Origin: Vigna angularis | Lineage: Eukaryota; Streptophyta; Magnoliopsida; Fabales; Fabaceae | Direction: 5' to 3' | DNA length: 64,000 nt | NCBI RefSeq assembly: GCF_016808095.1 | Contig: NC_068974.1 | Coordinates: 13,330,001 to 13,394,000, forward strand | Shown: positions 3,728-38,919 of the stretch, one piece after another | Layout: each line of letters opens with the position of its first letter | Position numbering within the stretch: the first letter of the stretch is position 1 | Position numbers and translations under genes: made by a program | The notes under the pieces: generated by a model | Told to the model about the DNA's origin: nothing | What the model saw: only the letters and a program-made list of their open reading frames with translations | Database searches by the model: none

Positions 3728-3731
3728 TTAG

Positions 3732-5535: not shown

Positions 5536-6821
5536 TGATGGACAAATTTATGAACACCAAAATATGATGTCACAAACTTGTTTTTCAATCGGCAAGTATG
5601 ACCGAATCGTTCAAGTAATAAACTTGGTAAGACCAAGTATCGTTCTTCCCAAAGGACTCACGGCCTAGTTTAGTTGTGTGGTTTCTTGATTAGCTAAGAC
5701 TTAAAGACGAAATATTTGGATTTTTATATGCAAAAGACGAAAATTAAATATGTATGCATGAAGTTTTGATCAATGGGAAAAGCACAAGATAAACACTTTC
5801 AATGAAATATATGTATGGATATGTTGTTGGGGGTCAATTTCATCTTATCCACTCTCATATATTTTAGGAATTCAACATTCAAATCATCATTGTTAATGCC
5901 ACTCTCTAAAGTACCTTTCAAGAAGGCTTCTCCCTAATCACGAGTTCATACAATTCCTAGCATTCTTAATGATCAGTTCATAAGTGCAGGAGCTTAACGA
6001 CAACCAATATACTATTGGGAGAAATTCCCCGGATCTAGACTTCCCCGTACGTGCCCGTATCGACAAAACCACTAATCATGCATCGAATGAGTTAAACAAC
6101 GCAAGCATTAAGCAAAGAAGAAAAACCCTAACTAATGATGAAAGAAAGCATAGGTCTTAATTAAAAGATGTAAAAACAAATTCCATATATGAGAGCTTCA
6201 AAAGATTATATTGATTCCCCAACAAACATACAAGGTTTAGTTCACCATATTCATGGTGAACCTAGATGAATAACAATGAAAGAATGGAAGATAAAACCCT
6301 AGAAAGGTGAAGAGGTAGCCTGAGCATCCAAGATCCTCCTTCAAAGGGGTGGAAGAGAGAGTGTTTGCTTCGTTTCTGCCAAAGATACAAACCCTAGGAC
6401 ATCCTAAAGCTTATATACTATTCTAAAATTACAAAAAATCTAGGTCCAAGCCCATAAGTATGCCGCTCAGCGGTAAGTGCGTGAGTCGTTTCTTCCCCTC
6501 AGCGGCCATTTTGCCCCTCAGCGGATCTCCCGTAAGCTCCTGAGTGCTGCTTAGCGGTAAACTGCCGCTGAGCGGTGACTTCGGCTTCTCCTTTTGCACT
6601 TTTTGATGTCTTTTCTGATTTCATCTCTCTCCTTCTTCACTTCTTTCACCAAATTCACCTTAAAACCTGCACAAAAACACTGAAATCAAGCATAAACCTG
6701 TCCAGCTCTCTTATTTCTGAAAATATGAATAAAAGTATGATTTCAAGCTAGTTTCTAAGTATATAGGTTGCTTTTAGTATCAATTTTAAGCATGAAAATA
6801 ACAGTTTTTCAACTGTTATCA
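5536..6821 (-). repeat. A1 LTR (biological 3' LTR)
   Basis: 1286 bp, starting TGATGGAC and ending GTTATCA. The adjacent 6822-6834 read on the minus strand gives AAGTTTGGGGTTG, a polypurine-like tract. Within it, 6463-6575 carries five near-copies of the palindrome CCGCTNAGCGG. Confidence 0.92.
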
Positions 6822-8092
6822 CAACCCCAAACTTAGAACTTTGCTTGTCCTCAAGCAAACAAGATGTAACTCCATCTTCAACCAATTCATATGATGGTTC
6901 ACTCATTCAAAAATCTTCTTTTTCAAGATAAGTAACAACTTCACTCAAACTTATGACCAAGAGTTCAATCAAGATGTGCACATGCTTTAGTGTTCACAAA
7001 GTCATTTAAATTCCAACAAATGCTATTTTTCATGAATGATCAATCAATTAAGCATGGATGTTTATGTGCTCATGGAATATTTCCTCACCAGATAAAGTGT
7101 TTCACTCACACACAAGTGTATAAGAGGTAATCACTCATTCACTCTACTATCACAATGTCACATGAATCAACTTTGCCTTTCATTTTATCACAATCAAAAA
7201 CATTCACAAGCATGCATCATCACAAGGACTTTTCAATGGCTTATAATGTGGCTGGGCTAACAAGAAAATTGGTTTTTCTGGATCACAAAATCCTTGAGTT
7301 AAGAGAATCATAACAACACAATTATTCTTATTCATTCCCAACTTTCTTTTGCCTTTGCATTGAGCTTTGCTTCTTTTTCTTTTCTTTTCTTCTTCTTTGC
7401 ATATTCTTACTTTTTAGCTCTTAGCTCAATGCTTTTCCTTTTTCATGTTTTCCGAACAACCCCAAACTTGAACATTTAATAATACCACACAAGATCTTCT
7501 ACTTAACTCAAGGTAAAGATTTTCAATCAAAGGTTTTAGTGTATGTTCAAGGCTAAGGGTTCCAAGGATAGAACACAAAATGTTCTCTTTTAGTGGGCTA
7601 ACTTTATGAATTTGGCCAATAAAAAGGGTTCCAACAAACGACCTTGATCATATGATGCAAAACAAGCAATTGATTCAATCATAGAAAACCTGGGCAAAGT
7701 CATTCATGCTTTCAAAGTAATAGCATTCAATCATACCAAAAACTCTGAAGCTCAAAACCTCACATATAAGCTCATTCACATTTGACATACACATCCTGCT
7801 TAATTTCACAATCACAATCATAATATCCTGCATTTGTTCACAAAGCTTGTGAATCACCTATATAAGCATTTTAATGTGTACATCTTCTCAACATCAATCA
7901 ATCAATAAGCATCATCAAGCATTACTTATCAAACAATCACAGTTAATAGCAAACCATCATAACAAACTAGGTGTTCAATAGAGTACATCAAACCTAATCT
8001 AAAAACAAAAACAAATAAGTTCAGAAAACTTAAACCAACAAACGCATAAGCATATGATAGCATTCATCAGTAAATGCTATCTCAGCTCCTCA
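6822..8092 (-). other. A1 3' untranslated spacer
   Basis: Between the polypurine tract and the accessory ORF there is about 1.27 kb of AT-rich sequence with a T/C-rich stretch near 7365-7440. I see no gene in it. Confidence 0.6.
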
Positions 8093-9328
8093 TCAATCTG
8101 AGCTGTCCTCTGTATCTTCCTTTTCCTCCTCATCTTCATCATCTTCAAATGCATCATCATCATCAGCTTCATCTTCTTCCATCTCTCTAGCTGAAGCTTC
8201 AGCTGCTTCAGCTCCTCCTCCATGCACTGGTTCCTCTGGCCAAGCTACCACATTATGGAATTCATCCATAGTCCACCTGTGGGCTGGAGGTGTATCATAC
8301 ATCCCCACAATCATCTCAGCAGTGGCCACCTGCCCTCTGTGAATGGACTGCAACTGAGCACCTATAAGAGACATATACATGTCCCTCATCTGGAATGGTT
8401 CTGCTTCACGTGTCTCAGCAGATGTCTGGCTCTGTGCTGGCCCTCTCTCTCTACGAGCACGGCGTGGTGGAACTGGTTGAGTTGCTTCCTCACCTCCACA
8501 GTACTGTCTGTAATAAGCCTCATCAATAGCTTTTCTTGGCCTCTCAAATGGTGGAGCAGAAGTGTCCACCCCAGCTATCTTGCAAAGGTGAATGATCAAA
8601 GAGGGATGTCCTAGTGGTGCTTTGTTGTTTGAAGTATTGGCGCACACACTAATCTCATCAGCTATCACCTGCCCAATATTAACATTCAAGTTTCTGATGG
8701 CACAGTAGATGAATAGTGCCCTGCTGAGAGTAATATCTGACACATGTGAACATGGCTGAATGTTGGCATGAGAAAACGCCATCCAATACTTTGCAAGAGG
8801 AGTCAAATCCGTCCTCCTAATGTTAACCACTGAGCCAGATCTATTCCTTTGGAAGTGTCCTCCAGTTATACACAGTACTCTCTCCACATCCTCATAATCA
8901 GCACCTTCCTCCATGCAAAGAGCAAACTGGCACTGCTCACCAGCCCATACAGTGTCCAGGAAGTTATTGATAGAATCAGGATCATACCTGATAGCATGGC
9001 CTCTGACATAGCCTAAATAATTCTCAGCTGGATAATCATCAATCTTCTTTGCATTGGTGTAAAATTCCTTTACCACAGCTATGTTGGCAGGTGCAGGATA
9101 GGTGGCTAGCTTTCCCCAGTCATTCCCTAACACTTGCTCTCCAAATTGAGGAGCAAAGTTAGGTATCATTCCAACCTTTCTCTCCATCAGAAGTCTCCTG
9201 TCCTGAACCACCCTAAAGTGCTTCTCATGTTTCCTAGAGAGGAACCTGCTAGAGTGGGGTTGCTCTGGTTCCTTTTCCTTTCTCATGGTTGCCATGGTTT
9301 TCAATCTCTTTCTTGAAGAGGATGTCAT
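8093..9328 (-). CDS. Athila-type accessory ('plant transposon protein' / env-position) ORF
   Basis: An intact frame of 411 residues from the ATG at 9328 (421 from an upstream ATG at 9358). An AG lies three bases before the 9328 ATG after a T-rich run (GTTTGAATGTAG), as expected if it is made from a spliced subgenomic RNA, so I prefer this start. After a basic N-terminus (SSRKRLKTM) comes the domain common next to pol in Athila elements: VKEFYTNA, YVRGHAIRYDPDSINNFL, LTPLAKYWMAFS, HVSDITLSRALFIYCAI, NVNIGQVIADEI. The tail is strongly acidic (EDDEDEEEKEDTEDSSD). No clear membrane segment is seen. Its molecular role is not established. It has stayed open although the element lost pol and its gag carries stops. 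Confidence 0.75.
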   Translation of the reverse strand: MTSSSRKRLKTMATMRKEKEPEQPHSSRFLSRKHEKHFRVVQDRRLLMERKVGMIPNFAPQFGEQVLGNDWGKLATYPAPANIAVVKEFYTNAKKIDDYPAENYLGYVRGHAIRYDPDSINNFLDTVWAGEQCQFALCMEEGADYEDVERVLCITGGHFQRNRSGSVVNIRRTDLTPLAKYWMAFSHANIQPCSHVSDITLSRALFIYCAIRNLNVNIGQVIADEISVCANTSNNKAPLGHPSLIIHLCKIAGVDTSAPPFERPRKAIDEAYYRQYCGGEEATQPVPPRRARRERGPAQSQTSAETREAEPFQMRDMYMSLIGAQLQSIHRGQVATAEMIVGMYDTPPAHRWTMDEFHNVVAWPEEPVHGGGAEAAEASAREMEEDEADDDDAFEDDEDEEEKEDTEDSSD

Positions 9329-9358
9329 TCCTACATTCAAACACAAATACAAAACCAC

Positions 9359-13169: not shown

Positions 13170-14117
13170 TGATGGACAAATTTATGAACACCAAAATATG
13201 ATGTCACAAACTTGTTTTTCAATCGGCAAGTATGACCGAATCGTTCAAGTAATAAACTTGGTAAGACCAAGTATCGTTCTTCCCAAAGGACTCACGGCCT
13301 AGTTTAGTTGTGTGGTTTCTTGATTAGCTAAGACTTAAAGACGAAATATTTGGATTTTTATATGCAAAAGACGAAAATTAAATATGTATGCATGAAGTTT
13401 TGATCAATGGGAAAAGCACAAGATAAACACTTTCAATGAAATATATGTATGGATATGTTGTTGGGGGTCAATTTCATCTTATCCACTCTCATATATTTTA
13501 GGAATTCAACATTCAAATCATCATTGTTAATGCCACTCTCTAAAGTACCTTTCAAGAAGGCTTCTCCCTAATCACGAGTTCATACAATTCCTAGCATTCC
13601 TAATGATCAGTTCATAAGTGCAGGAGCTTAACGACAACCAATATACTATTGGGAGAAATTCCCCGGATCTAGACTTCCCCGTACGTGCCCGTATCGACAA
13701 AACCACTAATCATGCATCGAATGAGTTAAACAACGCAAGCATTAAGCAAAGAGGAAAAACCCTAACTAATGATGAAAGAAAGCATAGGTCTTAATTAAAA
13801 GATGTTAAAACAAATTCCATATATGAGAGCTTCAAAAGATTATATTGATTCCCCAACAAACATACAAGGTTTAGTTCACCATATTCATGGTGAACCTAGA
13901 TGAATAACAATGAAAGAATGGAAGATAAAACCCTAGAAAGGTGAAGAGGTAGCCTGAGCATCCAAGATCCTCCTTCAAAGGGGTGGAAGAGAGAGTGTTT
14001 GCTTCGTTTCTGCTAAAGATACAAACCCTAGGACATCCTAAAGCTTATATACTATTCTAAAATTACAAAAAATCTAGGTCCAAGCCCATAAGTATGCCGC
14101 TCAGCGGTAAAGTACCG
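13170..14117 (-). repeat. A1 LTR (biological 5' LTR), first segment, cut by T1
   Basis: Matches 5536-6473 and then continues as 23804-24159. The pre-insertion sequence held an extra tandem CCGCTCAGCGGTAA block compared with the other LTR. T1 entered beside this palindrome, duplicating TACCG. Confidence 0.92.
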
Positions 14118-16449
14118 TGCTACGACTGTCGCGGTCATACAAATTTGATTGCAGAAATAAGTATGCAGTATAACTAGGAAGTGACTCCTAGGTCGTCTCA
14201 CAAGGACCAATTTGTGACGGTTCAGTCTCAGATTTTTTTTTTACACAAAAGGGGGGTGTTTGTGAATATTTTTGGATGCGAAAAATAAAATTAAAACTGG
14301 AAATTAAATAACACAGAATTTAAAAAATGTTGAAATAAATTTAAAAGACAATAAAAACTGAACAATGAAAGACAGTAAAAACGGAACAGTAATTATGCAG
14401 AAACGGTAAAAACATTGTAATTAAAATTTACCAAAAGCTTCAGTAAAAATAAACCGTAAAAAATGACTCTTGAAAATAACATTACCAGTAAAACACAATG
14501 ATAGAATTTAACGGTGTAGAAAATCATTAACGGTAAATTTAAGAGATAAAAAGATTTAACTGGAAATGGAATAAAAACAATAAAAATAAAATTGTTTGAC
14601 TGAAAATGAAATTCAACATTAAAATAAAATTCTGTAGAAGTAAAAATGAAATGAACAATGCTTCAGAAATAAAAACTACATTTTTGGATGAAATGGAAAC
14701 TCAGCCCCTGGAAGGGAGGAACCGAGAGTTGCTTCCTAAACTTACTCCTAATCCTAAATCTAATCCCCTTTAAAATTCTCCCAAGTCTCCTCCTTTTCTT
14801 CTCTGCTGCCTTCCATTTTTATAACCACAATTCTTAACCCGTGAGCCTCTCCTTTTGCCAACTTGTCTTCTTCTTCAATCACTTTTTGCACACCATTCCA
14901 ATCGTGGGCTCCTCGTGGTTGTCCGTGAAGACTCTTCTTTTCGGTTGCTGGCTTTTGAGGATGTAGCTGGATAGTGAAGGCAGCTGGTTCTGCAAAAGTT
15001 CAATCACCGTGAGCTCCTCTCCCTCTGCATACATCTTCTCCAACGTGCTGGACTGATGGAGGTTGCTGGACTGGGAAACTGAGAGTGGCGGCTGGAGTTT
15101 GAAGCTTGCTGGACTTGCAACCAAGCTGGATGCTTGAAGCTGCTGCTGGTGTTTGCGCAGGCCGTGAGCTTTGCCAAATGAAGATCCAAATCTAAAAGTT
15201 TGTGTGGAGTGGAAGAGATGGAGAGTTAAAGAAAATCTGCACTCCAAGCCTCTCAAAAGCCGTGACCTTCCATGGGTGGTGGCTTCTCTTCTTCCAGCAG
15301 GCCTTGTCTCTCTTCTTGCTTCTCTTCCAGGCCGTGACAGCATCCAGTCCGTGACAGCAGCAACTGTGATCTTTCCTTCAACGTGCACATCATCCCTCTT
15401 CTCCTTTGGACGTAAGCTGGACAACACCGAAAATAATAATGTTGGCTTTCTTTTCTTTCTTGTTGATTTTTGGATGAAAGAAATGAATGGTTGCAAGCCG
15501 TGGAATGTTGTCAGCTGGATGTCAATTCAAGTCCATTTGTTGTGCAGCGCTCCATTTTTCTCCCAATTAGAAACCACGTTCCAAGCCAAGAAAGGGTGTG
15601 GGGGCGGATCCCACTTTTATTCCCTTGTATATTACCAGAATAAATTGTCCATGGGGCCGTGTGCTTCCAGCTCTTGGAGTTCCTAGATGAGGACGTGGCA
15701 GCAGCCCTTGAATCCATGTGCTTCACGTTAAAATGCATCACCATTCTATGATTTGTTCTTGAACAAAAACATCATACACTAATATCACTAAGTGACCATT
15801 TCTTCACGTGAATCACCGTTCCACTTTTGCTCTCTTGCTCCAGATTTATTTGTCCATGGGCCGTGTGGTGTGTCCTTGGTTGCTCTTTCTCCATGCCCCG
15901 TGACCAAATTATTGTTGCAGCATTTCCAACTCTTTGTTTGGAAGCAAATTGGAAAGTACTATTTTATTTCCATTGTGTATACGTGGGACATGGTGTTCCC
16001 TTACAAAATTTAATTATTGAACATCATTACTTCTTAAGCAATTGTGTGGCAGTAACGTGTGCTCAGCATACCAGCCCATATTCAATTAAAACCTTACTTT
16101 CACAAAGCTACGTTCACTTTTAATACTAGAAATGAATTGTTCTTTTCTTCCCAGGAATATCAGTGTGCCTCCAATGCCCCTTTTTCTTGTGTCAAGAGAA
16201 ATTAATCCTTTGACTAAATTTTCATTTCTCATTTAATCTCTAAATATCCCAAACTGTATTTTCAAAATTTTCCCTGCAATTATTAATGCAAATAATTAGC
16301 TCAGATAATTCAAATTAATTAAAATAAGAATTTCTGATCGAATTAAGCACTGTTAAGGAAAATAGGAGAATACTGGACAATTAAGCACAATTCCCCAATT
16401 AATTCTAGTACAATAAACTAAGTGAAGTGAACAAAATATTGGCTCATCA
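14118..16449 (-). repeat. T1 LTR (biological 3' LTR)
   Basis: 2332 bp, TG...CA. Near-identical to 21466-23798. Read on the minus strand, TATAAAAATGG at about 14813-14823 is a candidate TATA box. The related T2 LTR (62629-63150) lacks the middle of about 1.7 kb (about 14665-16363). A 205-codon minus-strand frame (14879-15496) and its copy at 22228-22845 lie upstream of this TATA box; I see no known domain and do not call a gene. Confidence 0.93.
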
Positions 16450-18025
16450 AAATAGACCACACTTAGTCTTTTGCACTCCTGGGCAAAATCAAGACGCAAA
16501 TCAGGGAATAGTTCATAGGACATCAAAGGAGTAACACAGACTCAGCAGACAGAAAAATAAAGACTCACAAGAAAGTAAACAGAATTTACACAGTTCTCAA
16601 GAAGTCTGGACAGAGAAAAGATGTAGAAAATATCCAACACATCATCAAGAAAAGCATATACTTATAGAAATCATCCAAGCAATTCAATACATAGCAAAAT
16701 GATTAATTAGTTCAAGAGGTGATTCATAAGTAACATAACCTCACAGATGCACTATAGTGTTTCTCTCAAGTGTCTAGGGTAAATAATAATATCAGCTCGA
16801 TGTACTCAAGAAAACAAACACAAGTAGACTTGGCAAGCTTCTAATTATCAATACTTAAAACATATGCATGTTCAGATCAAAAGGTCTTTACTGGGTTGTA
16901 ATGGGGCCAAGGACAGAGGAGGATAAATTTGGATAAGTAGCTATAGCTCAGAAGAAATAGAGGTGCACTAGGAAAAAATGTAAACACAGTGAAATCTCAC
17001 CCAAACCTCTAATTCAATCCTCTTCTCGACTCCATTATTCACAAAAAATATTTTTCAATTTTTTTTTTCTTTTTCTCATCATTTTTTTTTTATCCTGTCT
17101 TCTTTCTTTTTTTTCCCTTTTTTTTTTATCACATAACAGGATATAAATTATCATTTCAAAACATGATGAGGAACCAACTAGCCAATTCATCAGAATTCCC
17201 AAGGAGACCACACTTATTCACAAAATACTTCTATAGCTCCAGACTTTCCTAAGGTTAAGGTAATCATTTGTTTTTCACTTAGGATCAGTGTATGAGCTTC
17301 AACACAAAGAAATATATACAGTATAGGCTCAAAGGGGTTATCAAAGGATAATAACAAGGTAGGCTTATTTGGCTAAAGAGGCTCAAGAACAAAAATGCCT
17401 TTATCACGTCTGAACATGTATATCAATCAAGTATATAAAAAAGAATCAAGCCAAGGCATATGTGCAAGCATTCAAGATACATATCACACACAAGAAAGAA
17501 AATTAAGTGGCTCAAATCTCTCACACAGGGTGTTTTTGTCACGATTAAATCAACCTCTTAAACATTATAATCATTTTTCCAAGCAGAGAAAAGCAAGGAT
17601 TGCAATCTATAAGTATTAAGTAAGTGAAGGAAAAATCTACAACTTAGACAAAATCCAGAAATCAGGAGAAAAATGTAAAATTTATTGCACTCAAGACACA
17701 CTAAAACAACTTAAAACAGAAAAAAATTTAACACTAAAAAAAAAACAAAAAAATTTAACACACAAAATACATACTAACAGAAACTAACAGAAAATTCAAA
17801 ATTTCTCCCTAGTAGACCACACTTAAACCACACAATGTCCTCAGTGTGTTACAATCATCAGATTTGTCAATTTGAAAGCAGTCAAATAATATAGACAAGT
17901 GCAATAAAAAGTAGGAAAAATGGGAAGAAATTTTCAGTAACATCCATCAGAAGATGTCTAAATCACCTAGCACCCATTAGTAGATGCTAAAAATAATTTT
18001 TTTTTTTTTTTTTTTGAAAAAGGAG
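16450..18025 (-). other. T1 3' untranslated region
   Basis: Starts with AAAATAGACCACACTTAG next to the LTR, which on the minus strand is the polypurine end. AT-rich with several poly-T runs (17050-17130). Most of 16610-17610 is absent from T2. Near 17942-17992 are hairpin words CATCCATCAGAAGATG and AGCACCCATTAGTAGATGCT like those in A1. No gene seen. Confidence 0.6.
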
Positions 18026-18125
18026 ATGACCGGCACTGTGACAACAGTTTCGGTGGCAATGACCGGAACTGTTGCTACAGTGGCGGAATTTTGGCTATAA
18101 ATAGGCACCTCCTCAGCGTCTGAGC
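18026..18125 (+). promoter_or_regulatory. promoter of the captured WOX gene: two direct repeats and a TATA box
   Basis: Two diverged copies of a 33-bp unit start at 18026 and 18059 (ATGACCGGCACTGT, then ATGACCGGAACTGT, each continuing to CAGT...GGTGGC/GTGGCG). A textbook TATA box TATAAATA is at 18096-18103, followed about 30 bases on by a CT-rich region suitable for transcription start. The orientation matches the homeobox gene and is opposite to the retrotransposon. Confidence 0.7.
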
Positions 18126-18297
18126 GCCATTTCCTGACTCTCACTCTCTCCTCTCTACTTCTCTCTCAACTCTCTCTCTGCTCTCTCTGCTCTTTCTCTC
18201 AACCTGAGCGTCTGGAATCTCTGCGGAGCCTCTGCCCCGGTGCCTTCTGAAGAGCTGAGAACCGCGAGGAGCTCCTCTGCCAACCCTACTTCTCCGG
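18126..18297 (+). other. predicted non-coding 5'UTR exon of the WOX gene
   Basis: Starts just downstream of the TATA box, is CT-rich and contains no ATG. It ends at a perfect plant donor, GTAAGT at 18298-18303. The matching acceptor TTTTAG ends at 18926, three bases before the coding ATG. The intron (18298-18926) is T-rich, as plant introns are. Confidence 0.65.
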
Positions 18298-18929
18298 GTA
18301 AGTCCTCTGCACCTTGGATCTCTATTTCTTCCTTTTCTGCTTCTCTCAAGTTTCCAGATCTTTCCCTTTCTGTATTTCCTTTATTTTTTTCATCACTGCC
18401 CTACTCTCTTTATTTTTCTCTGCTTGTTCTCTTTCCTTCTCCCTTGTCCTGCTTTCCTGTTATTTATTATTTTTTTTTCTTTACTGCATTACCTGTCCTC
18501 TTCCCCTCTCCGATCCATCTTCTTTCTTCCCCTTCAATTTTTTTTTAGTCTTTCCAGTTTTCTGATTATTAAGCACACTAAAAACAACTAAAAATCAAAC
18601 TAAAATAAAAAATAATGGACAAAACACTGGACCTAGATCCGTTAGGACCCTTTGCGAGGACCAGGACCTAAACATGGACAAAACAGATGGACCGAAAACT
18701 GGAAAATGAACAAACCTGAGACAAGACACTGAAACAAAGACTGACAGGACAAAATAAATTTAACGGGAAACAAAAACAAATAAGGAAAACACAGAACTAA
18801 TCTAATTTTTTTTTATGCTTCTTCTTTTTTATGTTTTTTTTTATATGTTTTGTTTTTCTTTTCTTTTTTATGTTTTTGTTCTTTTTATTTTTTGGTTTTT
18901 TTTTTTCATTTTTTTTTATGTTTTAGAAT

Positions 18930-19478
18930 ATGATGAGCGAGATGGAAATCGAGAGATACACCAGTCAGCGGTGGCGTCCTACCGAAGATCAGGTCAAGAT
19001 GATGACCAACATCTTCAACTACGGGGTTACCCATCCAAGCCGAGCGCAAGTCGTCGAGATCACGTCTCGACTAAGGACCTACGGAGATGCCAGCGAATAC
19101 AACGTGCACTGCTGGTTCAACAACCACGGCAATCGGGTCAGGCGCTGGCAAGCGGAGATAGACCCCACTGGCACTCAGTTTTCACAACTGCCGCTGTACA
19201 TGTACGGTAAGAACTCTCATCAGATCTCAATTTATTGAATTTTTTTTTTTTTTTTATTATTATTAACACAATTTTTATTTTTTTTTTTTTGAGAAGAAAA
19301 TGGCTGGGTGGTAATGAGGGCACCGAGGCTGCTGGACCTGTTTCCCGTCCCGATCATCATCGACGACGACAGAGATGAGCGACAAATCCCTCCGCCTAGG
19401 CCTCCTACATTCCGAACCAGAGCTCCCTCAACGGAGCTCTCCCTAAGATCACCACCGAGCAACTACTTTCGTTTTTAA
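18930..19478 (+). CDS. WUSCHEL-related homeobox protein captured in a retrotransposon
   Basis: Two coding exons, 18930-19206 and 19294-19478, give 153 residues. The donor is GTAAGA at 19207; the acceptor is GAG or AAG at 19291-19296, a NAGNAG pair, and both keep the frame. Residues about 13-76 are a WOX homeodomain: QRWRPTEDQ, a G-x-x-x-P turn (GVTHPS), ITSRLRTYG and recognition helix NVHCWFNNHGNR. The DNA-contact N of WF-x-N is kept, but the usual WFQNHKAR is WFNNHGNR. Exon 2 gives a WUS-box-like LLDLFPVP (105-112), an acidic DDDRDE and a short EAR-like ELSL (140-143), in the order known for WUS-clade proteins. WOX proteins are transcription factors, mostly repressors, acting in stem-cell niches. 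It lies antisense to T1, so its introns survive passage through the T1 RNA. Activity is unproven. Confidence 0.82.
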
Positions 19479-20070
19479 AGCTTTATATTTTATTTTTTAT
19501 TATGTTTTTTTTTCCGCTGGCCGAGTGTGGCCAGAATATTAATGAGGCATGTAATCTGAACAATTATTATTTTTTTTATGTTTTTCTTTTTAGTATTTTT
19601 TTATGTTTTTATTAAGGTCTGTAATATTTAACGATCAGAAATGATCGAACCCAGAACACTTTTATTTAGTTTTTATGTATTTTTGTTATATTTGTTTAAT
19701 TAATAAATGCACTTAAATTATTATCTCTGCTCAAACTATATTCCACTGACCATTACAGCAACTTTACTCTCAGATTTTTTTTTTTTTTTTTATATAACAA
19801 AAAACTAAATAAATAAATAAAAACAGAACACATATTAACGAAACAAAAGACCTAATATTGAATCAAAATATCAAACCAAATAAAACACATATTTCAAAAA
19901 CAGTAAACAAAACACATATTTACAAAACATACATTAACAAAATAACAGACCTAAACAGAACACAATTTTTTTTTTTTAATAAAAAATTTGTAAACTAAGA
20001 AAATCAGAATTCTCCCCTAATTCGCAAATTAAGAAAATTAAGGGAAAAAGGAATAGGAAAACTCCCCTGG
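19479..20070 (+). other. WOX 3' flank and junction back to T1
   Basis: T-rich and A-rich tracts with no further gene. Homology with T2 resumes at about 20044 (GGAAAA...ACTCCC, then GGTTATGGTGG), so the foreign segment ends near there. Confidence 0.5.
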
Positions 20071-21024
20071 TTATGGTGGTAGTTGCCAAACTTGGATTAT
20101 CAGGGAGATGTCTTTTGCCTCAGGATCCAGCGATGAAATTTTTAGGAGGAACTGCTTCATCAATATTGCTCTATCATTCCCAACAAGATTTTTCTTCTTT
20201 CTTTTCATAGCAATCTGTTTCGACAGTATCTTTCCTTCTACTGGTAGTTGTTGAGCGTGTGACACCGGAATAGATATCTCTGGCTCGCTCAAAGAAGTAG
20301 CAGTATACTCTCCTTCATTAATCGTGCATTCCTTAATGTCAGCACCTGCATTCTCTTTTAACTCTGCATTCTTGTCACCAAACTCACATTTGATAGCATC
20401 AATCTCTAAGTCATCAGCTGCATCCTCAGGGATATCAGTATCAGAATCCAGAACAGGCTGCTCAAGTTCTTCCTTTGCTACCTCAATTGGACTTTCACCA
20501 GCCAGCTTGCAGAGTAACTTCCTCGCTTCTGTTGGGGTTATATCCATCCAACATCCACCAATAGCTGCATCCACAAGTATCATTTCATTGTCCAGGAGCC
20601 CTTCATAAAAATAAGTCAAGAGCAAATGCTCTGGAATTTGGTGGTTTGGACAAGTTGTGCAGAGCCTGTTAAACCTTTCCCAATAATCTGCCAGGCTTTC
20701 TTCTTTAAACTGCTCAATGGCAGTTATCTTCCTCCTAATGCTGATCACCTTTGCTGCTGGAAAGAACTTGTCGAAGAATTTTTGTTGTGTTTCCTGCCAA
20801 CTATTAAAAGGATATTGGTATATGAACCAGTCTCTTGCTTCATCTTGCAGGGATATGGGAAACATTTTAATCAACACTGTCTCCTTGGAAACACCAGCAG
20901 GCCTCATAGATAAACACACCAAACTAAACTCCTTGAGGTGCCTGTATGGATCTTCATGTGCCAACCCAAGGAATTTGGGAAGACACTTGACTAGATCATA
21001 CATCCAGTCTTGAGAATCTGTCAT
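20071..21024 (-). CDS. gag: T1 Gag (Athila-type capsid protein), intact
   Basis: 317 codons with no stops. The plant retrotransposon gag core covers residues about 15-175: LPKFLGLAHEDPYRHLKEF, IKMFPISLQDEARDWFIY, WQETQQKFFDKFFPAAKV, ESLADYWERFNRLCTTCPNH, LTYFYEGL, VDAAIGG. An acidic region follows (DTDIPEDAADDLEID), then a basic patch (KRKKK) and a C-terminus MKQFLLKISSLD...SLIIQVWQLPP that is conserved in T2. No zinc knuckle and no protease. The protein would assemble particles and package T1 RNA, with enzymes supplied by another element. Confidence 0.88.
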   Translation of the reverse strand: MTDSQDWMYDLVKCLPKFLGLAHEDPYRHLKEFSLVCLSMRPAGVSKETVLIKMFPISLQDEARDWFIYQYPFNSWQETQQKFFDKFFPAAKVISIRRKITAIEQFKEESLADYWERFNRLCTTCPNHQIPEHLLLTYFYEGLLDNEMILVDAAIGGCWMDITPTEARKLLCKLAGESPIEVAKEELEQPVLDSDTDIPEDAADDLEIDAIKCEFGDKNAELKENAGADIKECTINEGEYTATSLSEPEISIPVSHAQQLPVEGKILSKQIAMKRKKKNLVGNDRAILMKQFLLKISSLDPEAKDISLIIQVWQLPP

Positions 21025-21440
21025 TTTCTCTATTTCTAGTTCAAAACCTATCTTAGACCTGGACTTTCACTTCAAGCAAAGATTATAAAAAAAATACGAA
21101 AGCATAACATGAAGTAAAACTAACAACTCCAGTTTTTTTTTTTTTAATTAACAGATAAAATACATATGACACGCATACAGAAAATAGAACATCACATCAC
21201 AACACAAAATAAAACACAACACAATTAAACATATAAAAGACAAAACATATATTACAACCACGTAATAAAACAAAAACAGTAAAAATCAAAAACAAGAACC
21301 TGGACTGAAGTGACAACGCCGCCAAAATTTGCTGAAGGTGTCGTTGTCGCCTACAAAAATATACAAGACAAAACACACAAAACAAACATATTAACAAAAC
21401 AAAAATTTACACAACAAAAATCTAAAACCGAACCGTTATT

Positions 21441-21465
21441 GGTCCCCGGCAGCGGCGCCAAAATT
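21441..21465 (-). other. T1 primer-binding site
   Basis: On the minus strand, TGGCGCCGCTGCCGGGGACC lies three to four bases from the LTR end, again the Athila/Tat type. It differs from the A1 site at two positions. Confidence 0.9.
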
Positions 21466-23798
21466 TGCTACGACTGTCGCGGTCATACAAATTTGATTAC
21501 AGAAATAAGTATGCAGTATAACTAGGAAGTGACTCCTAGGTCGTCTCACAAGGACCAATTTGTGACGGTTCAGTCTCAGATTTTTTTTTTTACACAAAAG
21601 GGGGGTGTTTGTGAATATTTTTGGATGCGAAAAATAAAATTAAAACTGGAAATTAAATAACACAGAATTTAAAAAATGTTGAAATAAATTTAAAAGACAA
21701 TAAAAACTGAACAATGAAAGACAGTAAAAACAGAACAGTAATTATGCAGAAACGGTAAAAACATTGTAATTAAAATTTACCAAAAGCTTCAGTAAAAATA
21801 AACCGTAAAAAATGACTCTTGAAAATAACATTACCAGTAAAACACAATGATAGAATTTAACGGTGTAGAAAATCATTAACGGTAAATTTAAGAGATAAAA
21901 AGATTTAACTGGAAATGGAATAAAAACAATAAAAATAAAATTGTTTGACTGAAAATGAAATTCAACATTAAAATAAAATTCTGTAGAAGTAAAAATGAAA
22001 TGAACAATGCTTCAGAAATAAAAACTACATTTTTGGATGAAATGGAAACTCAGCCCCTGGAAGGGAGGAACCGAGAGTTGCTTCCTAAACTTACTCCTAA
22101 TCCTAAATCTAATCCCCTTTAAAATTCTCCCAAGTCTCCTCCTTTTCTTCTCTGCTGCCTTCCATTTTTATAACCACAATTCTTAACCCGTGAGCCTCTC
22201 CTTTTGCCAACTTGTCTTCTTCTTCAATCACTTTTTGCACACCATTCCAATCGTGGGCTCCTCGTGGTTGTCCGTGAAGACTCTTCTTTTCGGTTGCTGG
22301 CTTTTGAGGATGTAGCTGGATAGTGAAGGCAGCTGGTTCTGCAAAAGTTCAATCACCGTGAGCTCCTCTCCCTCTGCATACATCTTCTCCAACGTGCTGG
22401 ACTGATGGAGGTTGCTGGACTGGGAAACTGAGAGTGGCGGCTGGAGTTTGAAGCTTGCTGGACTTGCAACCAAGCTGGATGCTTGAAGCTGCTGCTGGTG
22501 TTTGCGCAGGCCGTGAGCTTTGCCAAATGAAGATCCAAATCTAAAAGTTTGTGTGGAGTGGAAGAGATGGAGAGTTAAAGAAAATCTGCACTCCAAGCCT
22601 CTCAAAAGCCGTGACCTTCCATGGGTGGTGGCTTCTCTTCTTCCAGCAGGCCTTGTCTCTCTTCTTGCTTCTCTTCCAGGCCGTGACAGCATCCAGTCCG
22701 TGACAGCAGCAACTGTGATCTTTCCTTCAACGTGCACATCATCCCTCTTCTCCTTTGGACGTAAGCTGGACAACACCGAAAATAATAATGTTGGCTTTCT
22801 TTTCTTTCTTGTTGATTTTTGGATGAAAGAAATGAATGGTTGCAAGCCGTGGAATGTTGTCAGCTGGATGTCAATTCAAGTCCATTTGTTGTGCAGCGCT
22901 CCATTTTTCTCCCAATTAGAAACCACGTTCCAAGCCAAGAAAGGGTGTGGGGGCGGATCCCACTTTTATTCCCTTGTATATTACCAGAATAAATTGTCCA
23001 TGGGGCCGTGTGCTTCCAGCTCTTGGAGTTCCTAGATGAGGACGTGGCAGCAGCCCTTGAATCCATGTGCTTCACGTTAAAATGCATCACCATTCTATGA
23101 TTTGTTCTTGAACAAAAACATCATACACTAATATCACTAAGTGACCATTTCTTCACGTGAATCACCGTTCCACTTTTGCTCTCTTGCTCCAGATTTATTT
23201 GTCCATGGGCCGTGTGGTGTGTCCTTGGTTGCTCTTTCTCCATGCCCCGTGACCAAATTATTGTTGCAGCATTTCCAACTCTTTGTTTGGAAGCAAATTG
23301 GAAAGTACTATTTTATTTCCATTGTGTATACGTGGGACATGGTGTTCCCTTACAAAATTTAATTATTGAACATCATTACTTCTTAAGCAATTGTGTGGCA
23401 GTAACGTGTGCTCAGCATACCAGCCCATATTCAATTAAAACCTTACTTTCACAAAGCTACGTTCACTTTTAATACTAGAAATGAATTGTTCTTTTCTTCC
23501 CAGGAATATCAGTGTGCCTCCAATGCCCCTTTTTCTTGTGTCAAGAGAAATTAATCCTTTGACTAAATTTTCATTTCTCATTTAATCTCTAAATATCCCA
23601 AACTGTATTTTCAAAATTTTCCCTGCAATTATTAATGCAAATAATTAGCTCAGATAATTCAAATTAATTAAAATAAGAATTTCTGATCGAATTAAGCACT
23701 GTTAAGGAAAATAGGAGAATACTGGACAATTAAGCACAATTCCCCAATTAATTCTAGTACAATAAACTAAGTGAAGTGAACAAAATATTGGCTCATCA
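21466..23798 (-). repeat. T1 LTR (biological 5' LTR)
   Basis: 2333 bp. Differences from the other LTR seen by eye: GATTACAG versus GATTGCAG, AAACAGAAC versus AAACGGAAC, and one extra T in a T run near 21582. All open frames within it are identical to those in the left copy. Confidence 0.93.
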
Positions 23799-23803
23799 TA
23801 CCG

Positions 23804-24159
23804 CTCAGCGGTAAGTGCGTGAGTAGTTTCTTCCCCTCAGCGGCCATTTTGCCCCTCAGCGGATCTCCCGTAAGCTCCTGAGTGCCGCTCAGCGGTAAAC
23901 TGCCGCTGAGCGGTGACTTCAGCTTCTCCTTTTGCACTTTTTGATGTCTTTTCTGATTTCATCTCTCTCCTTCTTCACTTCTTTCACCAAATTCACCTTA
24001 AAACCTGCACAAAAACACTGAAATCAAGCATAAACCTGTCCAACTCTCTTATTTCTGAAAATATGAATGAAAGTATGATTTCAAGCTAGTTTCTAAGTAT
24101 AAAGGTTGCTTTTAGTATCAATTTTAAGCATGAAAATAACAGTTTTTCAACTGTTATCA
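23804..24159 (-). repeat. A1 LTR (biological 5' LTR), second segment
   Basis: Continues the LTR interrupted at 14117 and ends GTTATCA, followed by the target duplication CATAC at 24160-24164. Contains the CCGCTCAGCGG / CCGCTGAGCGG palindromes in the same order as the other copy. Confidence 0.9.
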
Positions 24160-25404
24160 CATACAAGAAGGATGAATCAGTGTGGAACATGTGAGAGCAT
24201 TGCTAGGAATGTTAAGGATAAGAAGAGTTGGGTGTAGAATTGTTCGAAGTGTGAATTACTGGATAAGCAAGGTACAAATACTAGGGCGTGTGTAAGCAAT
24301 GATAAACTGAGAGTCGGGTTTAGTTGAGAGTTTCTGGAACTTAGTGTTATAAGTGAGGATACGAACGTTATTAGGGGCCTCAGTTGAGAGTAGAGAGTGA
24401 ACCGTTTGGTAGAACCGATAGGAAGTGAGCAACGAAAAGATTTTGAGTTAGAGACGAACGGTCAGACGGATAGGACAATTCAAGAACGTGAAGGTCTAGA
24501 CGTACATACAATTTGAACCGAACAGTTTCAAATTCTGAAATTAGATTGTTGAATGTAGGGATAGAAGGGATTGTAGTCAGGCGAACCGTAATTCTGCCTC
24601 TAGGACGTACGCGCGTTTAGAATTGATTAGGGGTCAGAGAAGAAGTCTCATTTCCTCCAATGACCAAGAAATCCAGTCTTTGCCTAAACCTAAGATATTT
24701 AATACTCTCCATCAATCACTTGGAAAAGTTTCTATGCTCTCCTTCTTAAACAGTAGCTGTCAGTTAGACCAACTTTTAATTTATTTAGTTGGTTTCCTTG
24801 CTGATTAGTCGTTCGGTTTTCGTCTAATCGTTCGTGGCAAAACTTTCTCTTCCTTCTACGCGTGGGTTATAAACGAACATTCTATTTTTCTCTTCTTGGA
24901 CGTTCGTTATTTCCATCCTTTACTTGGATTGATTCTATATATATATAAATATATATAATTATATACACATATATTACTTTGCCTTGGTTTTCAATAATAA
25001 TTCAACCCTGTAATATTCAGATTTTTCCTCTCTGTGTTTTCTCTTCTCTAATATTTGGTATCTTCTGTTTCTCTGTTTCACACTCGAATCAAACAGTGAT
25101 AAATTTTTCCATTTAATATTTCTCCTTTGGAAGACTTGTGACTTTCTACTAGTAACTTTCGCATTCTGTATTTATGTTACCGATCAGTTAACCTCTCTAA
25201 GCCATTATCTATTTACTTAAATGTTATCAACCAGTTCTTTACGTCAGAGTTTTTCTGCAGTTCACTTTCTTCCCATAATTATTCAGCCTCACTCAAATAT
25301 AATCGATCGGTATAGTTGAAACCGGTCAACATTGAAGATTTGCTAAGGACGTGCGTGTGGGCAGAGTCGTTCGTCCTAGGAAGCTGTCGCCTAAATTCAT
25401 TTGA

Positions 25405-25774: not shown

Positions 25775-28425
25775 TGTCAGACCTCGGAAAACCCCACCCA
25801 AACCACACCTGTCTAATCTCATTAAAAACGCACCCAAAACCCCTCTGAGCGGACGCCAGGTGTCAACCAGCGAAGTTTCGAAAATCATATAATGGAAGGC
25901 AGGTGTCAGCAGGAGAGCGGACGTCTGTTTGGATGGGGGAAAACAAAAGTGATTTTCTAAAAAGTCGTACCTACTCTCTTCTGCATGCACCTTCTCCTTT
26001 CCAAACTCTGATCTTCCATTTCTCCTTCTTCTCTCTAGAAAACCCTCCCTTCTCTCTACGTTAACTCATCTTTTCTCTGCTCCGATCAACGTTCAGGCAC
26101 CGTAGGAGCATTCCCAGCGTCCCAAGCTTCATCTTGAACCGAACGAGTTTCAAGTTTGAGCGAGTAAGCGTATCTATCCTTAGTCGTTCATCTTTTGTTA
26201 CATGCAAACCAAGTTCTGGTTGCATGCAGGGGTATAGTCTAAGTTATTTGTGATTCTGATGTTGTTCAGTTTAAGTTGGAAGAGTTAAGTGATCATTGAG
26301 GGTAGAAAGCTGTAGTCGGGCGAACCAAAAACCTATTCTTAGGCAGTTCAATCACGTATCCAGGTAAGGGAAGCTTATTTAATTTAATTTGTATGTTGTG
26401 GTATTGTATGAACATTCGTTATTGGACTGAATGATTTTGATGCATGATGGTTGATATGATTGGATTGAATGAACGTTCGTTGATTTAATGAGTGGAAATG
26501 AAATATGGCTGAGTTATGTATAATGTATGAAATATATGAAACTTACATGATATGGATTGTATGAGGAATAGGAAATGTACTATAATATGAACGTATGGAA
26601 TTATGAAGTTGTATACTGAGAAATGAATTGGAATGTAAATGAATTTGAATATGAACTTTCCCTATGATAACGTACGAGCGTTACTGAACGGTCTTTGACC
26701 GTTCAGTTTTCCTGGTAAACATAGTTGAAATGTGATCATTTCATTTGGAGAGTATCCTAGTTGAGGACGAACGTCCTCGTGTGGTAATACTATGCTTGAG
26801 CGTTCGGCCAAGCACAGTTGTATCCGGGTATCCTGTGATAAACTAAAGTTCTATATGTAACAGTATATTTTGTTGTCCGTAAACACTGCTTCGATAGTAT
26901 TTTATACTATTTATTAAGCCTTTTTATTATAAGTTTAAATGTGCTCGGTCTTACACCAAGCGCTCGTCCCAAATAAGTGCTCGGTCTTACACCAAGCGTT
27001 CGTCCTGAATAAGTGCTCGGTCTTACACCTAGCGCTCGTACTGAGTAGTGCTCGGTCTTATACCAAGCGCTCGTACTCGTTTTTAATTTATCAATCTTGA
27101 TGAAACAACGTTCGTCCAATTTCAGTAGAATCTCTATTACCATGTTCGGTCATTGACTGGCATTAGGTTTCTACATTTGAATTATTCCAAGTATGGTTCT
27201 CTAACGTCTTGATGTGTCTACATCCATTGGATCCGGCCTAGAGCCTCCGTACTTAATTTATTCTTTGAGTATTGGTCTGAACTCACGAGAGTCAGGTCAT
27301 TCAGCTGATTTACGTGGTAAATAACGTTCGTCATATATGGTATATTATTGTACTCGGTTTGTTTCTCAAATCAAAAAGTAATTCTCTCGGTCTTATTCTA
27401 TTCTGGAACTGGAGATCTCTCTATCTCGTTCCAAGTGTTCGTCCTCGTTCTGAGTGAGGATTGAATGTTCGGTATCGACTATCCGTTAGAATCTTTGAAC
27501 AAAGATGAAATTTAACTTATTGGTAATGAAAGATGAATTTGAGAAAAGTAATAATGAAGGATGAAATTGAAAATGATTAGAAATGAAATAGGAAGAGAAT
27601 GTGATGTGAATGAAATGATGTGGATTTGAACGAGCGTTCCAGGGAGGAACGACTCATGGATGAATATTGGAATTGGTAAAGTATGACTGTGGGCATGCTA
27701 ATGCTGGCGGTTCATCCTGATGTTCTGTGAGTACTCGTCCTCACGTAGAGGAGGGTAGGTCATGTGTAGGAACGACAGGAGGTCCTAGTCCTTAGGGGTA
27801 CTTTGGACGGAACGGACTAAACTCGGGTGGCAGCTGATGAGAGTTTTCCAGTTACTACATCACCCGGGTGCACGAACGCCTGTAGCTACGCAGATTTCAT
27901 ACAGTCCGGATAGTCAGTCTAGTGATAGGGTTGTGTGATACGTACGTTGAAATTTATATGGTGTTGAATTATTTGAAATGTATGTTTATGCATGAATTAA
28001 ATTACATAAGCTTACCTGCGTTTCCTGTCGTGTCTGTTTTTTTACGTCCGTCCTTGTCATTGCAATGATCATCCGTGTGGATGTGAGCAGAAGGAGTCGA
28101 GCTGCTGGAAAAGGCGTTGGAAGAAGAAAATTTGGAAGAAAGCGAAGTCAAGACCGTAGAGTAGGATGTTCGGTCAATAGTCTAGTTATAGTAAGGTGGA
28201 CATCCGCTCACCTTCCCTTTTGTTTATGTATGAATGATCGGTGTCGTTATTTTGTAAACTGGTCGGATAGTTTTGGGTAGTGATGTACGGCTTAAATTTG
28301 TAACTCTTTCTGTAAGGCCGTTCGGCCATGAGCGTACGCTCGACTATAGTGTAAGACTAATCTGGTTTATTATTAATGTAATTATTCTATCATATGGTTT
28401 ATTGCTGTATTTTTGGGATGTTACA
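25775..28425 (+). repeat. G1 3' LTR, complete
   Basis: 2651 bp, TGTCAGACC...GATGTTACA. It contains the 36-bp tandem array at 26941-27082. The base run after it is TATTA, probably one half of the target duplication; the other half is lost. It landed at the very start of the first peptide-gene unit. Confidence 0.92.
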
Positions 28426-28970
28426 TATTACAACCTCATAGACACATTAAATAACTCTAAAATAAATTAGAACAAAACACTCCTAGTGATAAATTAAATA
28501 TTTTAACTTTTTTAATATTGCATTAATTAATTTTTTATTTAGTAATATAAATTTATACATATATATACACAAAAACACACACATATTGGATTTAAATATT
28601 TAAATATTGGATTTTAAATATTTAGCTTTCTATATTTAAATATTGGATTTTAAATATGAAACATAGTCAAAATTTACATTTAAAGTAATTATATCTTAAA
28701 TGTATTTAAGGTCAAAATAATTACATTTAAAGTCAAAATATATTATATTGACTAAATATACTTAAGAATGAAAAAGTATAATATTTTTTTTCCTCACGTG
28801 TTTAGCTTTATATATTTAAATATTGGATTTTAAATATGAAACATTGTCAAAATTTACATTTAAAGTAATTATATCTTTATATAATAAAGAAGTTATTAAT
28901 ATATTTATTTTTAAATCAATTTTATTGACTAATTAACTTTTAATGGAAAAGAGTATAATAATTATTTCTC

Positions 28971-32127: not shown

Positions 32128-33998
<1,871 letters not shown>

Positions 33999-34619
33999 TA
34001 ATCTTTTAAATAAACTATTTTAATACTACATTTAAAATTTAGGAGACATAGTCAAAAATTACATTCATTGAATATATTAATTATATAATAAAGCAATATA
34101 TAAAATAATAATATTTTTCTAATTAAAATATATTTTGTTGACTAAATATTTTTAAGAATGAAAAAGTATAATATTTTTTTCCTTACGTGTTTAGCTTTCT
34201 ATATTTAAATATTCGACTTTAAATATGAAACATAGTCAAAATTTACATTTAAAGTAATTATATCTTAAATATATTTAAAGTCAAAATAATTACATTTAAA
34301 GTCAAAGTATTAACTAAATATTCTTAAAAATGAAAAAGTATAGTATTTTTTTCCTTACGTTTTTAGCTTTCTATATTTAAATATTGGATTTTAAATATGA
34401 AACATCGTCAAAATTTACATATAGTAATTATATCTTTATATAATAAATAAGTTATTAATATTTTTATATTTAAATAAATTTTATTGACTGATTATTTTTT
34501 AATGTAAAAACGTATAATAATTATTTCTCTATAAATTCATGGTTAGCTTTCTTAAAACAATACCAAAGACTTTTTCTTCTATTCATATTTTGAATCCTTA
34601 GAAAACTTACAAAAGAGAT

Positions 34620-35092: not shown

Positions 35093-35298
35093 TTTCTAAG
35101 AACTTTTGAGTGAAATTTGATAGAAGAAATTGTATTCCTACCAAATTTTCAGAAATAATCTTGATCGATAAACAATGTTCAATTATTTTCATACTTATTT
35201 TGTAACTACTTTCCTCCATTTTATGTATTCCTTTGTACTATTGAAACTTGAGTATTAATAAAATTAATAAAATAAAAAAATTTATTTTAACAACATTA

Positions 35299-36215
35299 TC
35301 AACGCACCAAGGGCACATACCAAACACCCTCGCCCCTGCGTCATCGAACTCGAGGCACTCTATAATCTGACGAGAAGAGAAGGGGCGTGGCAACGAGGTC
35401 AACACACTTAAAGCCTCCAACTCTTCGATCGTCATCTTATCTTCCGACCACGAGGTAAATCTCAGAGGATCATGCGTCCAGTATAAGGGAAATCTGGGAT
35501 TCCCCTCACCATCGAAAAAGAACCGTCGACCAGCATCGGTGATCGACACCTTAAAAAACTTCTCCTTAAACCCTCTATACGATTGCAGGTAAAGCTCTAG
35601 AAGCGCGTTACCTGGTTCTGAGATCAATGATACCCACCCCTTCGTCGCAAGCGAACGACATCTGAAGAAATACAAAAACAAACCTACAGTAGGCCTAATT
35701 CCTAGCGCCCCACACAACACCCCGAACGCCTGTACATACCCCCAACTATTGGGATGCAGCTGGCTCGGTGCAACGTTCAAGGTGCGCAAAACATCCATTT
35801 GGAATGTGGTGAACGGCAATCTCACATACAGATCATAGAATAGCAAAGCATAACAGTAAAAGAATTCGTCAGCGGCATTCTCCCGCCCATAACAGATCCT
35901 CTCATCCTCCCGGCACGCTATCAACTTCACACAGGTGTGATACCCTAGGGTCCTCAACACACAACTATTCTCAATCCAATCCGTAATTACAGCTCTACTC
36001 CTAAATTGACTCCTAAGTTCTTTTACCTCACGCGCCGCCCAGGCGCACTCATCTCCATTAATCGGAGATATTATGCGTCCCCCTGGACCCTCGCCGCGCA
36101 CATTTCCATACACAAATGCCATTTCCCCATATGGTATCGTGGTAACTTCGGAACATTCCGCCGTAGATGACGGGCCCGGCATATCGCCCCCGATATCCTG
36201 CCCCCTTCCTTCCAT
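35299..36215 (-). pseudogene. Tat antisense ORF, N-terminal half ('gypsy-type transposon' domain)
   Basis: Starts at ATG 36215 (MEGRGQD), with an upstream CAG/GTAACC donor near 36260 in an apparent leader. The domain typical of Tat antisense ORFs is clear: DEFFYCYALLFYDLYVRLPF, QMDVLRTLNVAPSQLHPNSW, YVQAFGVLCGALGIRPTVGL, FLYFFRCRS, then FFFDGEGNPRFPLYW. It is cut at CPWCVDNVVK where host sequence begins. Such ORFs lie between pol and the 3' LTR of Tat elements in antisense and can have their own promoters; their function is unknown. The missing half is at 42626-43446. Confidence 0.8.
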
Positions 36216-38900: not shown

Positions 38901-38919
38901 ACGACCGACATATCCAAAA

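Follow-up and report, generated by a model that had tools for sequence, protein, structure and literature searches.

The Vigna angularis retrotransposon that we term T1 carries, antisense to its own gag gene, a spliced homeobox gene, and we regard it as almost certain that this is a selected, element-borne gene derived from a WUSCHEL-related homeobox (WOX) gene. The gene lies on the plus strand at positions 18026-19478 of the window, by which we mean the whole stretch of 64,000 nucleotides analysed here (C5:13330001-13394000 in the assembly of 448,266,875 bases used for all searches of the plant's own genome).

A first-pass annotation had described a TATA box, a CT-rich leader lacking ATG, a consensus 5' UTR intron, two coding exons joining in frame to 153 residues, and a WUS-box-like LLDLFPVP in the last exon. 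The signals are all present (Table 1), and the first ATG past the TATA box, at 18615, falls within intron 1, leaving the stretch from the TATA box to the first donor free of ATG. The two coding exons do join in frame, but the proposed junction 19206/19294 and the length of the product probably need correction. Both acceptors are possible: with exon 3 from 19297 the product has 152 aa (...MYENGW...), with exon 3 from 19294 it has 153 aa (...MYEENGW...). Since the nearest-acceptor reading in the other copies compared is usually MYEN or MYEY, intron 2 probably ends at 19296. Sequence inspection supports a putative promoter of the gene's own. The database proteins P0038 and P0061 extend through the promoter region, matching window positions 18026-18292 and 18026-18286 respectively. 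A chance open reading frame is excluded by the homeobox matches, the genomic copies, and the openness and dN/dS of those copies, all described below.

Table 1. Features of T1, its WOX gene and the related element T2, in window positions
Feature	Position	Strand	Basis
T1, non-autonomous LTR retrotransposon, gag on minus strand	14118..23798	-	self-BLAST, boundaries, flanks
Target-site duplication TACCG, left	14113..14117	.	boundary inspection
Target-site duplication TACCG, right	23799..23803	.	boundary inspection
T1 3' LTR, 2332 bp, TG...CA	14118..16449	-	99.87% to right LTR
T1 5' LTR, 2333 bp	21466..23798	-	self-BLAST, boundaries
Primer binding site TGGCGCCGCTGCCGGGGA	21443..21460	-	sequence, beside T1 5' LTR
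T1 gag ORF, 317 aa	20071..21024	-	PF03732, 5.3e-16
WOX cargo segment, approximate extent	17935..20055	+	both junctions aligned with T2 63300-63800
TATA box TATAAATA of WOX gene	18096..18103	+	sequence
CT-rich 5' leader exon	18128..18297	+	start inferred ~30 nt past TATA; sequence
5' UTR intron (intron 1), GTAAGT...TTTTAG	18298..18926	+	donor and acceptor in sequence
Coding exon (exon 2), WOX-type homeodomain	18930..19206	+	frame, Pfam, PDB matches
Second intron (intron 2; probable end), GTAAG...AG	19207..19296	+	GT donor in copies; acceptor via copy comparison
Last coding exon (exon 3; probable start), LLDLFPVP, C-terminal APSTELSLR, terminal stop codon	19297..19478	+	
First AATAAA downstream of WOX stop, possible poly-A signal	19702..19707	+	sequence
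T2, T1 relative cut by window end, no WOX segment	62629..64000	-	alignment

As the annotation had it, the WOX gene lies on the plus strand within a minus-strand element of nearly identical LTRs; T1 is 9.7 kb long and its LTR pair differs by two substitutions and a single one-base indel. The rice substitution rate is 1.3e-8 per site per year, and at that rate two substitutions in 2332 sites would place the insertion some tens of thousands of years ago. For coding content T1 has gag and no pol-sized frame: among 27 stop-to-stop frames of at least 60 aa in or across its interior, none besides gag exceeds 136 aa. Features of the Athila/Tat type are the TG...CA ends of the LTRs, the 5-bp target-site duplication and the primer site beside the 5' LTR. 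T1 is tentatively Athila-like, by that primer site, which we take to be of the tRNA-Asp type, and by its PF03732 gag, which was compared with the gag of the neighbouring element and shares 33% identity with it. T1 is inserted in an LTR of a second element (LTRs at ~5536-6823 and at 13170-14110 plus 23799-24161), which is in turn flanked on both sides by the long repeats (1236-3728 and 25939-28426) of a third element. T2 is 78-86% identical to T1 over the matched pieces and passes directly from the equivalent of T1 ~17934 to that of ~20056, near the end of gag, with the WOX segment absent; the alignment across this junction bounds the cargo to ~2.1 kb.

Several side observations concern the same window. 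About 1.8 kb of the T1 LTR (14571-16368 and the matching part of 21466-23798) has no match in the T2 LTR and holds frames of 205 aa (14879-15496, minus strand) and 171 aa (15171-15686, plus strand), for which Pfam gave nothing above cut-off; the 10-kb loci described below match the T1 LTR mainly at its two ends, its middle being variable. An open frame at 33366-33824 (152 aa) resembles plastid petD and is probably plastid DNA in the nucleus. Dispersed repeats at 28545-28789, 34114-34358, 47816-48060 and 55832-56076 are 62-97% identical and lie in the 28-56 kb part of the window, some of the matches being inverted. The element interrupted by T1 has a minus-strand frame (8093-9358) with Transposase_32 (PF20167, 2.2e-65). 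Another minus-strand frame (35238-36308), with Transposase_28 (TRP28), lies upstream of plus-strand frames at 37495-41384, and reverse transcriptase and RNase H are found in the plus-strand frame 38757-40415. TRP28 is a domain reported for Retand antisense ORFs (PMC7264820; PMC11963269).

The assignment to the WOX homeodomains, made at first from the letters alone, held when the product was searched. The window product contains PF00046 at an E-value of 2.2e-6, which passes the cut-off, as do all 17 members of a profile alignment of this product and 16 relatives. The sole PDB sequences matched (E <= 0.01; with the profile, E <= 0.001) were WUSCHEL (9.6e-11) and STENOFOLIA (1.3e-10). An AlphaFold model was made for the relative P0008 with an alignment of 30 of 82 proteins; its pLDDT by block is 82-93 for residues 11-70, with a mean of 65.1 and low confidence over the rest of the chain. 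Among solved structures, Foldseek places the homeodomains of STENOFOLIA and WUSCHEL at the top for this model, including a complex titled WUS-HD bound to G-box DNA.

In protein databases the relatives are concentrated in Vigna. All 62 matches of the first search were named Vigna angularis (the truncated 'Phaseolu' in UniRef names of such proteins is presumably the synonym Phaseolus angularis), a profile of 9 sequences gave 41 matches at E <= 10, 40 from Vigna and one from Rehmannia, and a profile of 17 sequences gave 82, comprising 74 from V. angularis, one from V. radiata (P0065), two from V. umbellata (P0069 and P0072) and five others. These five are from Castilleja, Rehmannia, Erythranthe, Salvia and Phtheirospermum, all of which we take to belong to the Lamiales; one is named WOX2 and one WUSCHEL-related homeobox. 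The searches that gave matches outside Vigna were limited by length and shared words. No relative from Glycine or cowpea was named in the protein searches, where masking of transposons in annotations could hide some, and none was found in the bacterial and viral contig collections. A tree of the window product with 45 of the 82 proteins contains only four rows from outside Vigna, on long branches flagged by the tool.

In the genome, the gene is far from the single occurrence that would have spoken against the annotation. The T1 exon, used as query, gave 150 scored matches (the best 150 of 624 candidates), all at 89-100% identity, 4 with internal stops and 146 without. The protein P0052 returned at least 145 homeodomain-exon rows, five exon-3 rows having been dropped before counting; 99 were new relative to the T1-exon list and, among the matches listed, comprised 25 of family B (7 with a stop) and 74 of A type (8 with a stop). 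The homeodomain of P0078, a Castilleja foliolosa protein with the source name 'Homeodomain' ('WOX2-like' being our own label), found among the matches listed 13 rows of host-like type, of which 11 stand at 61-84% and two, both partial, at 60%, together with 137 further rows at 37-47%, 12 of these 137 with stops. Family C came from the search with P0071: stops interrupt 12 of its first 42 rows (55-97%), and among the matches listed C11:3752240, at 46%, is the sole WOX locus of host-like type. The union of the T1-exon, P0052 and P0078 searches contains at least 329 putatively transposon-type homeodomain exons on 11 chromosomes, and at least 13 host-like WOX loci, two of them partial, are present in the genome. 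The distance between neighbouring exons on the same strand is mostly 7.9-8.8 kb in T1-type runs and 22.8-23.2 kb in family B, a spacing suggestive of elements in arrays and of a larger carrier. Runs of three to four WOX exons spaced at 8.1-8.8 kb occur at C6:890918-917659, C6:1947086-1972123 and C9:14399964-14416487, and are probably head-to-tail arrays of T1-type elements.

Twenty of the 150 places, taken from across the ranking, were examined in 10 kb of sequence. Seventeen of these loci, on several chromosomes, have a T1-type context, with the WOX gene antisense in every one. A T1-type LTR stands on both sides in 15 of the 17, and on the gag side only in L019 and L026; L022 and L026 also contain inverted pieces of other copies. 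The LTR pairs of those 15 loci are 99.39-100% identical over 916-2287 bp, no pair having been obtained for L019 and L023-L026. The promoter and leader were matched at 77-85%, in the gene's orientation, in 18 of the 20 loci (in some partially). Across the 65 copies sampled for selection, the best match to the 15-base TATA context in the 1 kb upstream has at most two mismatches in 37 and at most three in 56, and GTAAGT occurs within the -800 to -400 stretch in 55. The annotation's argument that antisense placement let the introns survive reverse transcription agrees with the uniform orientation in the 17 loci and with the recurrence of intron 2 and the promoter region in the copies.

The WOX gene also sits in a second repeat family, which we call T3. 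L023, L024 and L025 share other flanks among themselves, with tandem repeats of ~102 and ~90 bases in L023 and L025. L069, the right flank of L025, contains on the WOX strand a frame for gag and protease of Athila-like type, which may be part of T3. By upstream type the 65 copies divide into 48 T1-type, 11 T3-type and 6 ambiguous, three of the last (L010, L014 and L015) being T1-type by their 10-kb context. The WOX genes of T3 type form one clade (support 0.978).

These contexts bear on the possibility that the copies are ordinary host WOX genes, segmentally duplicated, with retrotransposons inserted in or near them. Some copies are indeed annotated at source as WUSCHEL-related homeobox genes, the surroundings of the three T3 loci leave room for it, and PMC10357499 reports a WOX expansion in Vigna reflexo-pilosa. 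However, the target-site duplication encloses the whole of T1, WOX gene included; 17 of 20 loci, on several chromosomes, show T1-type parts with one and the same relative orientation; and, among the matches listed, the 13 host-like loci stand at 60-84% to the Castilleja query, against at most 47% for the other 137 rows. We consider such an origin of the copies extremely improbable.

The gag gene was followed in the same genome. Its search gave at least 150 rows, 78 of them at 69% identity or more; 77 of these were entered, and the rows left out were a partial one at 84% (C10:16020814) and 60 of the 72 below 69%. The T1-type gag frames elsewhere are mostly 418-453 aa, compared with 331 aa stop to stop in T1. 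Among the exon matches listed, a WOX exon lies within 6 kb of 40 of the 77 T1-type gag loci, antisense and downstream in 39 cases and on the far side in one. The P0078 list added one more such locus, reducing those with no listed WOX exon within 6 kb from 37 of 77 to 36; some of these may truly lack the exon, as T2 does. Twelve gag rows at 49-58% (12 of the 72 below 69%) have frames of 889-1942 aa, from the length of which we infer the gag-pol of autonomous helpers, and none of the twelve has a listed WOX exon within 16 kb.

Two further observations concern exchange among the copies. Eight T1-type loci (L010, L011, L014, L018, L021, L022, L026 and L028) match the T1 gag (20071-21024) only near one end, and show instead a gag ~40% identical to that of the neighbouring element; gag seems to have been exchanged within the T1 family. 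Among L002-L048, at least three types of exon 3 are joined to a near-identical exon 2, which suggests recombination or template switching among copies.

Selection on the protein was assessed in 65 non-redundant copies, window included. They were drawn from the 150 places that rank highest in amino-acid identity of exon 2, after removal of L001, which is the window itself, and of L002, L004 and L007, which are the same places as L009, L010 and L011. Ranking by exon-2 identity inflates openness and lowers exon-2 dN, while exon 3 and the matches from other queries are less affected, although not free of bias. In this sample exon 2 stays open in all but one of the 65 copies (L022 has a stop); all 65 have the GT donor, and 64 an AG acceptor in frame. 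Full spliced products of 150-154 aa come from 63 copies, and one product has 112 aa. By the pooled Nei-Gojobori method over 2080 pairs, which are not independent, exon 2 gave dS 0.277, dN 0.029 and dN/dS 0.105 in a sample biased to conserved exon 2, and exon 3 gave dS 0.553, dN 0.100 and dN/dS 0.182. Third codon positions account for 71% of pairwise differences in exon 2 and 59% in exon 3. Exon 2 has the smallest mean distance, 0.070, followed by exon 3 (0.171) and by 940 upstream bases (0.274), the last in an alignment that mixes T1 and T3 types. For exons 2 and 3 respectively, dN/dS is 0.107 and 0.218 within T1-type, 0.129 and 0.093 within T3-type, and 0.098 and 0.128 between the two. Samples less tied to T1 have stops in 8 of 74 (P0052, A-type) and 12 of 137 (Castilleja homeodomain) of the matches listed, while older families decay, with a stop in 7 of the 25 exons of family B and in 12 of the first 42 rows of family C. 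The dN/dS that the annotation had proposed as a check thus bears, within a biased sample, signs of purifying selection on the WOX-derived protein; random decay is excluded for the sampled T1-type and T3-type copies, families B and C showing more stops.

By dS bin, dN/dS is 0.247 in the youngest (16 pairs) and then 0.107, 0.106, 0.162 and 0.119, six pairs outside the bins having been dropped. Selection that operates on transposing lineages and is relaxed once a copy has inserted would give such a pattern, but 16 pairs are a small number. It might equally be asked whether the gene is a captured passenger, its copies alike through recent spread of the element, since the LTR pairs show single insertions to be young and the youngest bin has the highest ratio. 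Yet at silent sites the copies are not young with respect to one another (dS 0.28 and 0.55), dN/dS in the biased sample stays at 0.106-0.162 in every bin above 0.05 and at 0.098-0.128 between T1-type and T3-type, the splice donor is kept in all 65 copies, and neutral simulation to 51% identity, without indels, leaves 339 of 20000 frames open. A mere hitchhiker is for these reasons very improbable.

Conservation is concentrated in the motifs. Between families A and B it is 0.78 in the WUS-box region, 0.81 in the C-terminal motif and 0.52 in the homeodomain, compared with 0.31 and 0.17 in the linkers. We take the WUS box consensus to be TL-x-LFP-x-x; the 63 full-length products have LLDLFP (53), LLNLFP (6) or LLHLFP (4), the T being replaced by L in the T1 type, while family C has TLDLFPIP. 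The C-terminal motif PS[TM]EL[ST][LF]R occurs in 62 of the 63, and its leucine pattern is presumably EAR-like, of a putative repressor type. In helix 3, W48, F49, N51 and R55 are kept, and positions 47, 50 (in T1 only) and 54 differ from the Lamiales WOX proteins (NVFYWFQNHKAR against NVHCWFNNHGNR in T1); the numbering, and the DNA-facing and specificity roles of these positions, are assumed by us to apply to these products. The families differ here as well (CWFNNHGN in T1, CWFQNHGN in B, CWFQNYGY in C), and a changed helix 3, distinct in each family, suggests new DNA targets.

These features bear on whether the product is, as the annotation put it, a mobile stem-cell regulator. Mobile and WOX-derived it is, but the helix-3 residues differ from those of host WOX proteins, and the product may work for the element and not as a regulator of stem cells. 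A factor acting chiefly on host cell fate, as WUSCHEL does, could enlarge or protect the stem-cell or germ-line pool such that copies are inherited more often, and the WUS-type fold, the WUS-box-like motif in 63 of 63 full-length products and the C-terminal motif in 62 would suit it. Given that the presumed DNA-facing positions differ from those of other WOX proteins, the host targets may have been lost, and we think host manipulation unlikely.

Among described systems, the aORF-3R genes of Tat, Retand and Grande elements (TRP28/PF04195, SMC, gene23) resemble the T1 gene in being extra genes antisense to gag-pol in the 3' internal region, and gene23 of Grande is transcribed from an upstream promoter and has a nuclear product, according to PMC7264820 and PMC11963269. 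Known aORFs, as far as those papers describe them, either have no similar genes outside elements or have TRP28, Smc, mitotic checkpoint, DNA polymerase III gamma/tau, topoisomerase 2 or Mis12 domains, whereas T1 has a WOX relative with spliced coding exons in a gag-only element. TRP28 was not found in the T1 antisense gene, in which Pfam finds the homeodomain only; T1 works like a Retand-type antisense aORF element but is not classed as one. Transduced host genes also lie inside LTR elements but, according to PMC7264820, are usually in sense and in one or few copies, while the T1 WOX gene is antisense, retains introns, exists in many copies and is under selection. Compared with WOX proteins, the T1 product shares the WOX-type homeodomain, a WUS-box-like motif and a C-terminal ELSLR, and differs in its length of 150-154 aa, the T to L change in the WUS box, helix 3, its hundreds of mobile copies and the 37-47% identity of these to a WOX query among the matches listed. 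HBZ is an antisense gene of HTLV. Such retroviral antisense genes offer an analogy to the predicted role of the T1 WOX gene, as antisense regulators with promoters of their own, with no common descent; HTLV antisense genes are mentioned in PMC11963269. The annotation knew of no described WOX cargo and we met none in the literature examined: among the matches listed from open-licence titles and the starts of abstracts, no homeobox gene inside an LTR element was described.

Antisense transcription itself, and not the protein, might regulate the element, a role proposed for antisense ORFs generally in PMC7264820. The codon-position bias and the conserved protein motifs point instead to a protein, although the two could coexist, and we hold a purely RNA-based role to be improbable.

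The explanation that we favour as a whole, and consider reasonably probable, is that T1 is a member of a family of non-autonomous Vigna LTR retrotransposons, active in recent times, that encode two proteins: Gag in sense and, in antisense, a small WUSCHEL-type homeodomain factor with a TATA promoter, a 5' UTR intron and a coding intron. A host WOX gene would have been captured in antisense, introns included, so that splicing of the WOX mRNA would leave the element's genomic RNA untouched, while autonomous relatives would supply the enzymes in trans. The protein would be an accessory transcription factor, in which the homeodomain, the WUS-box-like motif and the ELSLR repressor-type motif are kept, and would set the place or strength of expression of the element, or of host genes that benefit it, the most plausible setting being meristem or germ-line cells, from which a new insertion passes to the next generation. 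That the product regulates its own element in particular we put at about even chances.

Sites in the LTR offer a weak lead at most. The sequence TCACGTGA, which we take to be a WUS site, is confined within the window to the two T1 LTRs, with one occurrence in each, its count being reached in 7 of 300 LTR shuffles and 10 of 100 window shuffles; it is a candidate LTR site for the WOX product. An excess of TAAT in the T1 LTR (0 of 300 dinucleotide shuffles) was rejected, as it disappears when a second-order model is used (160 of 500) and is not shared by T2.

The origin of most antisense ORFs is described as unknown, and the absence of similar genes outside elements as an argument against capture, in PMC7264820. 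A cellular relative is evident for the T1 WOX gene, which also has introns and a predicted promoter and on which selection has been measured, with the consequence that both origin and function become testable. We would suggest, tentatively and as the less likely course, that a retrotransposon lineage repurposed a plant stem-cell regulator as an accessory factor of altered DNA specificity, passed among several carriers, for expression in the meristem or germ line, forming a selfish WUSCHEL circuit that would also explain WOX 'expansions' in Asian Vigna. Vigna gene models counted as WOX genes can be transposon genes; the WUSCHEL-related expansion in V. reflexo-pilosa, not linked to elements in the available text of its report (PMC10357499), may have the same transposon cause.
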